From positions 1 through 64,000 of the forward strand of contig NVXU02000002.1 in the NCBI GenBank assembly GCA_002734065.2: a stretch of 64,000 bases of DNA. The letters run 5' to 3'. Position numbers and translations under genes: made by a program. Shown here piece after piece: positions 36,246 to 59,619 of this stretch; the first letter of the stretch is position 1; each line of letters opens with the position of its first letter. The stretch comes from Fluviicola sp. Lineage in GTDB: Bacteria > Bacteroidota > Bacteroidia > Flavobacteriales_D > Crocinitomicaceae. The notes under the pieces were generated by a model. The model saw nothing but the letters and a program-made list of their open reading frames with translations. It was not told the DNA's origin and searched no databases.

Positions 36246-36370
36246 TCCAATATAAGTTAAGGAAAATTATAAGACTCCACCAAATCAATGGACATTTTTT
36301 ATTAAAGGTAGGTTCGATTATAATCATATTCTAAATAGTGTATTATGGATTAATAAACACCTACCCCCAA

Positions 36371-36412
36371 CTCTGTGAACCTCTGCGCCTCCTCTGTGGC
36401 TCTCCGCGTAAC
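36371..36412 (-). repeat. ACAGAG-family repeat R3, inverted orientation
   Basis: CTCTGTGAACCTCTGCGCCTCCTCTGTGGCTCTCCGCGTAA. Confidence 0.93.
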
Positions 36413-36526
36413 ATTACCAAAACAACACCCACCCAACCCCACTATGATTCTTAACATTTTTTTAATGAATTTCAATTATAGTCCCATTCTAAATAGTGTA
36501 TCGTGAATCAAGAAACACCTACCCAA

Positions 36527-52894: not shown

Positions 52895-52951
52895 CAACAT
52901 ATGTAAATATAGCAAAAAACATTCTTTTTTAAAAGTCTTTCAACTTTCTAT

Positions 52952-53356
52952 CTACATCCCTGGGAAACTCTCTACCGTTTGAATTTTTAAATCCGGAAAG
53001 CTTTCCACTACTTGAACCTTAAAATCAGGGAAACTTTCTACTACTTGCCATTCGCCGCAGTCGTCAGGAAATGACGTGACAAACTTGACTTTGATGTCTG
53101 GGAAACTTGTTACATATTTCACTTTTATATCCGCAAAACTGGAGACAAACTGTACCTTGCCGTATAATTTAATTCCTTCCCATTCACAACTCCCTGTTGA
53201 TAGCATATACGCAATGGCTTCCTTTTTTTCGTCGCTGGTCAAATCAGCCATTGTTCTTTCCTTTTTTGCTTCTTTTTCTTCCTCGCCACTAGTATTTGTC
53301 AAAGAAATGGTCAAAAAAGTCGACGTAAGTAACGTAAATAAGATTAGTGCCTTCAT
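52952..53356 (-). CDS. secreted protein with SFPD repeats; candidate 7(1) septoil-knot domain
   Basis: Signal peptide, then GKVQFVSSFADIKVKYVTSFPDIKVKFVTSFPDDCGEWQVVESFPDFKVQVVESFPDLKIQTVESFPGM. Confidence 0.75.
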   Translation of the reverse strand: MKALILFTLLTSTFLTISLTNTSGEEEKEAKKERTMADLTSDEKKEAIAYMLSTGSCEWEGIKLYGKVQFVSSFADIKVKYVTSFPDIKVKFVTSFPDDCGEWQVVESFPDFKVQVVESFPDLKIQTVESFPGM

Positions 53357-53433
53357 AATTTTGTTTTTTTAGGAGTTAATGACTATACTCACTCGCACTG
53401 TAAATATAGAACAAATTTCAATGTATCAAAAAC

Positions 53434-53525
53434 CTTAACCCTTTCATAACCATTCCTTAACCTACTTTCATTCTCTTCTGTTCTATCTTTACAGAAAAAA
53501 ATGTCAGTGCAAGAATTGAAAATAG
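53434..53525 (+). repeat. 92-bp direct repeat (left copy) flanking HipBST-like module
   Basis: 89/92 identical to 55396-55487; contains promoter-like TATCTTTA and ATGTCAGTGCAAGAATTGAAAATAGA. Confidence 0.95.
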
Positions 53526-53536
53526 ATTGTACATCA

Positions 53537-54499
53537 CTATCTACTGACCGTGTCTAACATTTTCAATCGTGCATCAATCAGATTTTGCAACTTTTTTTTA
53601 TGGTTTTCTGGCAAAAAACTGTTTTTTACCCACCATTTAATACTTTTTTCTTTACTTAAGATTTTTTGATAAATGTTTTCTCTTTGTTTTACACTGAGAG
53701 ATAGGGTGTTTGCTAAAATGTCAAAATCTTTTAATTTAATTTTGTTTTTCTTCCCATTTAAAGTTAAGCTCATTTGTTCATCTTCGTTATCGATTACTAA
53801 AAAAGTGGATACCAAATCGTATGCTGGACTTAAAGTGAAATTACCATCCCTATTTTCTAACATCGAGAAGTTTTTCAGATGCATATCTGCATTTCCGATA
53901 ATAAAATTAAACAAAACCAATTCAAAAAAATTCAGAGCATCCAGACCTGATTGTGACGAATATTGACGAATCGTTTTTCCTGTTTTTTCATAACTACTTT
54001 TGTATTTACGTTCGGTCAGTGTTTCTGTAAGTTGACACAAATCTTCACTTGCCAATTTCGCATTTCTGTCTCTATCAAACCTTTGCGTTATGTATGCTAA
54101 GTTTCCCGACGGCAATTTTATTAAGCTATGTTTGGCTGTTTTAATATTCAATTCAGCAGCCAAACGCATACAAAGGTCCTCGTTTTCAGGTAAAGATTGA
54201 TATACCTCACTTTGGGGCTTAATTATAAAATTACTTTTGCTGTCAATGATAGAAAAACGAATAGTTGATTTACTCTTTTCTAACCACAAACTTAATTTAG
54301 GTTGAACGCCAGTAATTGTAGTGTTTGCTTCAATTAATTCTTTTGCATGTTCTTTTAATTCCTTTTCATTAATATTTATTAATGGCATTTGCTTTAAACC
54401 AAATTCCTTCTTTAAACATTTTGTATGATAGTTTATTTCTAATTTATCAAGAGGTTTATAGCAGATTAAACATTTCATTTTATTTTTCTTTTTTAACAC
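53537..54499 (-). CDS. HipT-like HipA kinase C-terminal toxin with N-terminal CxxC...HxxxC motif
   Basis: VQPKLSLWL, YITQRFDRD, FIIGNADMHLKNFSML, LSPAYDLVST; likely start at MKCLICYKPL (54478). Confidence 0.9.
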   Translation of the reverse strand: MLKKKNKMKCLICYKPLDKLEINYHTKCLKKEFGLKQMPLININEKELKEHAKELIEANTTITGVQPKLSLWLEKSKSTIRFSIIDSKSNFIIKPQSEVYQSLPENEDLCMRLAAELNIKTAKHSLIKLPSGNLAYITQRFDRDRNAKLASEDLCQLTETLTERKYKSSYEKTGKTIRQYSSQSGLDALNFFELVLFNFIIGNADMHLKNFSMLENRDGNFTLSPAYDLVSTFLVIDNEDEQMSLTLNGKKNKIKLKDFDILANTLSLSVKQRENIYQKILSKEKSIKWWVKNSFLPENHKKKLQNLIDARLKMLDTVSR

Positions 54500-54797
54500 T
54501 TACATCACCTATATTATCCTGACATAGTGTGAGTAAAATGTTCATCCTATCTCGTGGATTTAATTTCCAATTATCAACAGCGATTTGCAATAACCATCCT
54601 TCGGGTATTAAACCGTCAAAAAAAGGAATCATATTCTCACTTATATATTTTTTTTCTCGCAAAGGCAGAGTCCTACTTATTTCTCCGTATTTAGGGTTGG
54701 CTAAATACAATTTGTCGTATTGAAAATGACATCCTTCTTCATCCTCCCAAATTGTTCCTGCCAATATTTCTTTTTTATATACAATTCCTTTTTTCAT
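54480..54797 (-). CDS. HipS-like protein (HipA N-terminal domain as separate polypeptide)
   Basis: YKKEILAGTIWEDEEGCHFQYDKLYLAN...ISRTLPLREKKYISENMIPFFDGLIPEGWLL. Confidence 0.9.
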   Translation of the reverse strand: MKKGIVYKKEILAGTIWEDEEGCHFQYDKLYLANPKYGEISRTLPLREKKYISENMIPFFDGLIPEGWLLQIAVDNWKLNPRDRMNILLTLCQDNIGDVSVKKEK

Positions 54798-55249
54798 TGC
54801 TCTTCAATGTATTGCATGTCAGAATGTGAAATTATTTCTACTAATTGATCATTCTTCTTTTTTTGATAGCTCATAGCATTATTATTTGAAACAAATTTCC
54901 ATCCTGATATTTCTTTATTATTAGCATCTATTATTTCGTCAATAATAAAACCGTATTTTATAATTTTGTTTTTCAAAGTAATTTTTACTGCTCTAGTAAA
55001 ATATTTAAGACGAATGTCATTTTTAAAATTTAAAGCAATCTCATAAGCATCTAATTCAATCTTTGCAGGAGACATGCGAAATCCAAATAAAGATAAAACT
55101 TGATTGACTTTATCCAATCTCAACGTCTCTTTTCCTTGTTCCATTTCCCTAACAAATCGAATTCCAACACCTGCTTTATGGGCAAGTTCTTTCTGTGTCA
55201 TATTCAATTTCTTTCGATAAAATTTTATAAATGATGCTGCTTTTGTCAT
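54794..55249 (-). CDS. HipB-like XRE-family antitoxin with C-terminal extension
   Basis: FIKFYRKKLNMTQKELAHKAGVGIRFVREMEQGKETLRLDKVNQVLSLFGFRM; start MTKAAS preferred (ORF track start 55288). Confidence 0.88.
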   Translation of the reverse strand: MTKAASFIKFYRKKLNMTQKELAHKAGVGIRFVREMEQGKETLRLDKVNQVLSLFGFRMSPAKIELDAYEIALNFKNDIRLKYFTRAVKITLKNKIIKYGFIIDEIIDANNKEISGWKFVSNNNAMSYQKKKNDQLVEIISHSDMQYIEEQ

Positions 55250-55256
55250 AAAATAT

Positions 55257-55353
55257 ACCTTTACAGGTGTAAATATAGTAAATATCATTAAAAAAAATAC
55301 CGATTGGGTATATATTTAATGTTTATTTCAAAAACAAACCTGAACGGGTATAT
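55257..55353. promoter_or_regulatory. three operator-like ACC-N5/6-GGT sites upstream of hipB-like gene
   Basis: ACCTTTACAGGTGTAAA (55257-55273), ATACCGATTGGGTAT (55297-55311), AAACCTGAACGGGTATATA (55336-55353), centres about 40 bp apart. Confidence 0.6.
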
Positions 55354-55395
55354 AAATTGTATTTTATTAAACCGAAAAACTTTTCGAGTATTAAG

Positions 55396-55487
55396 CTTAA
55401 CCCTTTCATAACCATTCCTTAACCTACTTTCATTCTCTTCTTCCCTATCTTTACAGAAAAAAATGTCAGTGCAAGAATTGAAAATAG
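55396..55487 (+). repeat. 92-bp direct repeat (right copy), includes start of downstream gene
   Basis: 89/92 identical to 53434-53525. Confidence 0.95.
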
Positions 55488-55660
55488 AAAAGCCTAAAAA
55501 TGATTTGGTGCAACTCATGCAACTCGGAGACGAAGCAGGTAAAATTGGTTTGCTGCAAGAATCACTAACTTGGTACACAAAAGGTCTTGCCAAAGCGAGA
55601 GACCTTAAAAATGAAGTGATGATGGAGAAGTTTTCTTCTTTGGTGATGTTGTCGTTGTAG
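55463..55660 (+). CDS. small conserved hypothetical protein
   Basis: 65 aa MSVQELKIEKPKNDLVQLMQLGDEAGKIGLLQESLTWYTKGLAKARDLKNEVMMEKFSSLVMLSL; TATCTTTA box upstream. Confidence 0.7.
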   Translation: MSVQELKIEKPKNDLVQLMQLGDEAGKIGLLQESLTWYTKGLAKARDLKNEVMMEKFSSLVMLSL

Positions 55661-56374
55661 TTAAACCAACAACCTCTTATACATCTGTACTGTATTCTCC
55701 AAACCTAAATACAAGGCATCAGAAATCAATGCGTGACCAATAGACACCTCTTGTAAACCTTCGATATTCTCCTTGAAGAATTTTAAATTCTCTAAGTCCA
55801 AATCATGACCTGCGTTAAGACCCAATCCTAATTCTACCGCTAATTTTGCCGCAGCAACGTAGTCTTTTATTGCATTCTCCGGATTGGATTTAAAATTCTG
55901 CGCATAAGGACCTGTATATAATTCTATCCTATCAATGCCGCATTTTGCGGCGAATTCAATGTTTTGCAAGTTGGTGTCAACAAACACGGAAGAACGGATG
56001 CCTTTGCTTCTTAATTCTTGAGAAAGTTCTGTTAAAAGAACCTCATTTTGCTTCGTGTCCCAACCTGCATTGGAGGTCAAAACACCAGGAGAATCAGGAA
56101 CCAAGGTTGCTTGAGCAGGTGCAACTTCCGAAACCAAGTCCATAAAACGTTGGTTGGGATAACCTTCAATGTTGAATTCCGTTGTGACCACCTTTGCCAA
56201 ATCGTAAACATCTTGCCTGGTGATGTGGCGCTCGTCCGGTCGAGGATGCACCGTAATCCCATCTGCTCCAAAACGTTCACAATCAATCGCGACTTGCACA
56301 ACATTGGGCGTGTTTTCTCCCCTCGCATTTCGCAAAGTGGCAATTTTATTTACGTTTACACTAAGCATCGTCAT
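55661..56374 (-). CDS. pdxJ: pyridoxine 5'-phosphate synthase
   Basis: [72 protein letters not shown]. Confidence 0.97.
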
Positions 56375-59330: not shown

Positions 59331-59370
59331 TTCTGGCACCTCTTTGCTCTGTGAAACTCTGTGTCAATAT
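59331..59370 (-). repeat. ACAGAG-family repeat R5, inverted, degenerate
   Basis: GGCACCTCTTTGCTCTGTGAAACTCTGTGTCAAT. Confidence 0.8.
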
Positions 59371-59428
59371 AGAGCTTTAGAGTATTGGAGCATTAGAGCT
59401 TTGGAACTGACTTCTTATAAAAACCTAC

Positions 59429-59497
59429 TCAACTCTGTGGAACTCTTCCGAAAAGTCGGAACAAGTCGTGCCTTCTCTGCGGTTCTCTGTGTCAATA
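59429..59497 (-). repeat. ACAGAG-family repeat R6 interrupted by a ~21-bp insert with hairpin TCCGAAAAGTCGGA
   Basis: AACTCTGTGGAACTCT[TCCGAAAAGTCGGAACAAGTC]GTGCCTTCTCTGCGGTTCTCTGTGTCAA versus R4. Confidence 0.85.
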
Positions 59498-59619
59498 TAG
59501 AGCTTTAGAGTATTGGGTTTTCTGACAGTGGGAGTTAAGATTGAGCAAGAGTATCTCACCTTTCGAGAAATCTAAAAACTTTCTTAGTTTATCACTTCTC
59601 TGTTTAACAGAACAACAGA

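Follow-up and report, generated by a model that had tools for sequence, protein, structure and literature searches.

A hipBST toxin-antitoxin operon in Fluviicola enclosed by two copies of its neighbour's gene start: a probable insertion with long target duplication

Integron gene cassettes are small mobile units that extend from promoter to stop and often carry toxin-antitoxin (TA) genes, and some integrative elements restore the 5' end of a gene after integrating. Restriction-modification (R-M) genes reportedly insert with long target duplication, as Nobusato et al. in 2000 and Furuta et al. in 2010 are said to have found. Three papers describe such insertions for R-M genes in Helicobacter, with long, variable duplications of ~100 bp (PMC3874152, PMC1643837, PMC3031569). 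Carrier-free movement of small TA or defence modules between chromosomes is an open question, for which the known precedent rests on R-M genes; our literature search, with many journals outside its coverage, returned no report of a TA module inserted with long target duplication.

Within the window (the whole 64-kb stretch of Fluviicola sp. DNA that we analyzed), a hipBST module is enclosed by two direct repeats (Table 1). A sequence-only reading of this DNA had described them as 89/92 identical; that span stood, but the similarity extends 1-2 bases beyond the ends proposed there. The three mismatches are adjacent (GTT in the left copy, TCC in the right). A repeat search of the window placed the copies in one 96-nt direct family (53431-53526 and 55393-55488, 96% identity, start-to-start distance 1962), and the pair is by far the longest direct repeat of the window. 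The 3.49-Mb genome contains exactly two copies of the 92-bp sequence: a genome search for a third found none, the next-best match having E = 0.04. Neither terminal inverted repeats nor a flanking insertion sequence (IS) with a short target duplication were found among the window repeats. Two other direct-repeat pairs were recorded, near 36313-36524 (54 nt, 83%, spacing 158) and near 59347-59516 (42 nt, 90%, spacing 128).

Other claims of the same reading were likewise confirmed. The right copy leads into an intact gene (orf65), for which no Pfam match was found, and the left copy yields a short peptide ended by a stop codon. Between the repeats there are 1.87 kb of AT-rich DNA (29% G+C, vs 38-39% in the flanks), a cassette which is recombinase-less, its only ORFs being hipB, hipS and hipT.

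Table 1. Coordinates of the features of the hipBST locus in the window.
Feature	Position	Strand	Description
left neighbour (sec134)	52952..53356	-	secreted-looking 134-aa protein
left direct repeat	53434..53525	+	second copy: orf65 promoter region, start codon and first ~9 codons
truncated orf65	53501..53557	+	MSVQELKIDCTSLSTDRV-stop; leaves the repeat and runs into the end of hipT
hipT	53537..54478	-	predicted HipA_C kinase toxin without N-terminal subdomain; PF07804, E=5.8e-50
hipS	54480..54797	-	putative antitoxin, HipA N-subdomain-like; PF13657, E=5e-21
hipB	54794..55249	-	HTH regulator of the module; PF01381 and TIGR03070
hipB promoter	55253..55354	-	three operator-like boxes: AATATACC..AGGTG, ATACCGATTGGGTATAT, CTGAACGGGTATATA
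right direct repeat	55396..55487	+	promoter region and first codons of intact orf65
orf65	55463..55660	+	insertion target; intact, 65 aa
pdxJ	55661..56374	-	right neighbour; part of the conserved dnaG-pdxJ-cbs-nadK order

The description of the cargo as HipBST-like is borne out by Pfam and NCBIfam domains and by the best solved-structure matches of its products, all of which are Legionella HipBST chains. HipT matches HipT(Lp) over almost its entire length (8ezr, E=1.8e-44); its PF07804 domain spans residues 54-274, and the kinase signature stretches GVQPKLS, NADMHLKNF and PAYDL are present in the alignment. HipS is best matched by HipS(Lp) (7vkb_B, E=2e-10) and HipB by HipB(Lp) (8ezt, E=1e-7). 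The operon thus comprises a HipA_C HipT without N-subdomain-1, a separate HipS encoded directly upstream of it, and an HTH HipB encoded first. The order hipB-hipS-hipT, the split HipA, the HTH HipB and the kinase motifs are shared with the HipBST systems of E. coli O127, Legionella and Haemophilus. At 151 aa, HipB exceeds the 76 aa of HipB(Lp) in the solved structure. A HipBST system is further expected to have a toxic HipT that is neutralised by HipS and has TrpS as its target.

The TATACCCgttCGGTA boxes upstream of hipB also occur in the modules of relatives, and homology between modules runs from the operator boxes to just before the hipT stop. Ahead of the conserved operator region the insert has only ~40 bp, and the hipT stop is 10 bp away from the left repeat. 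Since homology and boundaries sit at the operator boxes and the hipT stop, the insert appears to hold little beyond a working operon.

The closest HipT among 33 congeners is only 43% identical. Much closer proteins (70-80% identical) were found in the species-level genome set, in distant Bacteroidota and mostly in unrelated gene neighbourhoods. Plasmid hits reached at most 51% identity; no close HipT relative was found in viral contigs, and no match to the cassette DNA in phages. Judged by its composition and its homologues, the hipBST operon is horizontally acquired.

The gene order to which pdxJ belongs is conserved in the genus, and homologues of orf65 are present in 16 of the 33 congeners. 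A gene of the orf65 type adjoins pdxJ in the window species and in its two nearest relatives (G031 and G014). In each of the two, the repeat-like region upstream of orf65 (CCTTAACC...TAAC...TTTA...ATG) occurs once, and no hipBST is found beside the gene. Both relatives have CC at the position of the differing triplet, which is nearer to the right, functional copy of the window; the left copy therefore looks like the decaying one. The search for empty sites proposed in the sequence-only reading was partly successful: it recovered one promoter copy without hipBST in G031 and G014, but their left side is rearranged, orf65 being preceded by ribE in G031, whereas in G014 a short insert with an HTH gene comes between orf65 and ribE. 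Because the left neighbour differs, these genomes are evidence for a single-copy ancestral promoter rather than strict empty sites, and on account of this rearrangement a strict same-site empty allele was not found among the congeners, compared at one genome per species.

The 134-aa left neighbour has a homologue in one congener only. It was presumably divergent from orf65 before the insertion, and the native sequence to the left of the repeat is presumably the sec134-side neighbour. A unit of ~33 nt is repeated within its gene region at 52950-53113 (SFPD.K..VESFPD repeats). The neighbourhood of orf65-type genes varies in the genus (L010-L025): the gene is pdxJ-adjacent in three genomes, and elsewhere its neighbours are a gene resembling 2-oxoacid dehydrogenases and one resembling prolyl-oligopeptidases. 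Directly upstream of the orf65 promoter, G014 has ~0.65 kb carrying an HTH-plus-membrane gene (L027:5370-6030), which is missing from G031. The spot upstream of this promoter may be an insertion hotspot.

A parallel case was found at recQ in genome G503 (locus L261). Here, hipBST lies between two 83-bp repeats (95% identical), which contain TATCTTTGG and take in the promoter box, start codon and first 22 codons of recQ; an intact recQ follows the right copy. The layout is duf62, 310 nt, recQ' (22 codons), hipBST, recQ. Five congeners of G503 have duf62, 310 nt and recQ, with one copy of the repeat and no module. The distance from the left-copy ATG to duf62 is the identical 310 nt, the alignment breaks off inside recQ at the left junction, and the repeat ends 11 bp from the module. 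On these alignments, the L261 module was inserted into the start of a gene and the target was duplicated, an architecture shared with the window locus.

Long direct repeats, of 42 to ~400 bp and 79-98% identity, also bracket roughly a dozen others of the ~120 hipBST relatives examined in Bacteroidota. The sequence of the repeat differs from locus to locus, and in several loci it reproduces the end of an adjacent gene. The repeat is a copy of the ackA 3' end in L154, of an ABC transporter gene's 3' end together with the small gene that comes next in L101, of the terminator after rplT in L115, and of the promoter region between two divergent genes in L117. Direct repeats across the flanks scored >50 bits in 13 of the 71 loci with enough flanking sequence, and reversing the right flank as a control gave no score above 32 bits. 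When two-copy repeats close to the module were required, 5/51 full-length loci scored positive with the module in its actual position; displacing it to 24 other offsets gave 2 hits in ~1224 tests, both from the positive locus L160. Inspection, by which operator copies, tRNA genes, dispersed repeats, paralogues and palindromes were discarded, left L101, L110, L115, L117, L126, L154 and L160 (L119 was neither kept nor discarded). In an independent draw of genomes, L231, L234, L239, L261 and L274 were bracketed among 50 new loci.

The candidates rejected as target duplications were of several kinds. The repeats of L123-L125 are copies of the hipB operator: these modules of rumen Bacteroidales have an extra hipB operator region (TATACCCGATAGGGTATAAT) downstream of hipT (L123:4286-4417/6065-6196). 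Dispersed repeats account for L136 and L103, tRNA genes for L134, and paralogues for L137 and L141; in L137 (2630-7560) hipBST is flanked by two paralogous large serine-recombinase-like genes. L090 and L131 were set aside as palindromes. L090 also has a 117-bp, 99% direct repeat (3337-3453/5181-5296), which begins 53 bp past hipT and reaches the contig end, and this locus is possibly another bracketed insert. L262, initially counted, was withdrawn after relative G615 was found to join the native upstream sequence to the right copy.

No detectable repeat surrounds the modules of most relatives. The hipBST of E. coli O127 (L181, NC_011601 3944000-3954500), located between yhjV and dppF, has no flanking repeats, and repeat bracketing is therefore not universal. 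This region was matched by 5,399 E. coli genomes, with at least 80% query coverage, i.e. with the module carried, in 161 (~161 carriers among 5426 complete genomes). The bracketed modules have no junction motif or terminal inverted repeat in common, and the relatives of L274 (trmD) show no conservation of the upstream sequence.

Under one looser rule, 13/109 hipBST loci were bracketed, compared with 0/78 housekeeping or ordinary loci (pdxJ, duf62, trmD and orf65 homologues). With four doubtful hits (L123-L125 and L136) removed, the comparison is 9/105 vs 0/78 (p = 0.011), the control loci being drawn from few, related genomes. Tandem paralogue arrays were positive in 2 of 11 cases. AbiE toxin-antitoxin loci were bracketed in 5 of 29 (p = 0.001). 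The bracketed AbiEi/AbiEii modules, all from other Bacteroidota, are L318 (83-161/2521-2601), L326 (462-500/2532-2570), L327 (374-431/2262-2319), L323 and L338; in L326 the right copy lies within the first codons of a SRAP-family gene.

We consider it probable (about 0.76) that a minimal hipBST operon of ~1.87 kb entered orf65 at codon ~9 and that ~92 bp of the target were duplicated. Of the two readings offered from sequence alone, insertion via long target duplication gains support from the single promoter copy in two relatives, from a dozen bracketed modules against 0/78 controls, and from the five empty sites at recQ, where L261 provides the one exact empty/filled pair. The insert is flanked by locus-specific host repeats, with no transposase or recombinase inside it. 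In the window too the duplication is likely to have arisen at insertion, and repair that is not site-specific may have been its source. The inserted unit would extend from the promoter and operators through the hipT stop. The left copy would be the interrupted start of orf65, now dead, and the right copy would restore the promoter, start codon and first codons of the gene, leaving orf65 intact. One option is that a staggered break, its ends offset by ~92 nt, captured a DNA fragment and was then filled in; an alternative would be a template switch back upstream. By either route, duplications of arbitrary length would be expected. Such products would tend to be kept, through selection both for the rebuilt neighbour gene and for the addictive module. 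The module could later be lost again if the two copies recombine by a RecA-type or slippage process.

The other reading offered at the outset, an att-flanked cassette, was not supported. Here the repeats would be attL and attR, and an integrase supplied in trans would have placed a circular, recombinase-less cassette at orf65, which accords with a compact cassette that has a direct repeat on either side and with the rebuilding of a gene's 5' end upon integration, a feature of some known integrative elements. However, the repeats of related modules share no core, motif or other sequence and vary about tenfold in length, and their targets are unrelated gene 5' ends, 3' ends, terminators and promoters. 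A site-specific recombinase is disfavoured on these grounds and by the want of any junction motif or terminal repeat. The cassette has no recombinase gene, the genome no further repeat copy, and the searches of viral contigs and phages lend this origin no help; we regard it as improbable. Slightly better placed, and still unlikely, is a donor molecule (a circle or transformed fragment) that already carried hipBST beside the orf65 5' end and entered by homologous recombination at the ~92 bp. The mismatched triplet would then be a difference between donor and recipient, and similar modules are indeed exchanged widely; yet this merely shifts the origin of the arrangement to another strain, and the relatives suggest that GTT in the left copy is a derived state in a non-functional sequence.

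The promoter duplication could also be older or independent (tandem or segmental), the TA module having been placed between the copies later or moved along with them. The dnaG-pdxJ interval is rearranged in the clade, and in L262 a displaced gene-5' fragment accompanies the module without a simple target duplication, both of which agree with such a history. The sequence-only reading had itself named relatives with both copies but no cassette, or a clearly older duplication, as findings that would speak against it; the available relatives contradict this, none of them having both copies minus the module. The repeats moreover abut the module ends, both here and in L261, and recur around modules while being absent at housekeeping genes, so that we hold an earlier duplication to be very unlikely. 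That the arrangement is an assembly artefact is hardly credible: 92 bp is short enough to trouble some assemblers and many comparison genomes are metagenome-assembled (MAGs), but 3 mismatches set the two copies apart, every junction is unique, and the layout recurs in an unrelated genome for which empty sites are available for comparison.

Insertion with long target duplication would explain how a module lands inside a gene without destroying that gene. The window locus, the recQ parallel with its five empty sites and ~ten further cases extend the pattern to a TA family, and the recurrent scar, as read from these alignments, points to a transposase-free spread route for such modules. The age of the scars can be ranked by repeat identity (79-98%), and their junctions are testable for the repair pathway involved. 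It is tentatively conceivable, if on balance doubtful, that Bacteroidota TA modules (hipBST, AbiE) make up a general transposase-free mobile class, which spreads as promoter-to-stop units with long target duplication sparing the neighbour and is driven by addiction or by toxin-induced stress and repair.

In being a small promoter-to-stop unit the hipBST cassette resembles integron cassettes; unlike in these, no integrase or attC was seen, and the repeats copy host gene ends. With integrative elements at gene 5' ends it shares the flanking repeats and a right copy that restores the gene, but hipBST cassettes have no recombinase and no conserved core, and use a different target each time. The R-M insertions with long target duplication are similar in several respects: in both, a compact, addictive module without transposase is flanked by long, variable duplications (on the order of 100 bp), the targets are locus-specific, and empty sites, here those at recQ, have a single copy. 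The difference lies in the cargo, which in the precedent is an R-M system and here, in Bacteroidota, a type II tripartite TA module (and also AbiE).
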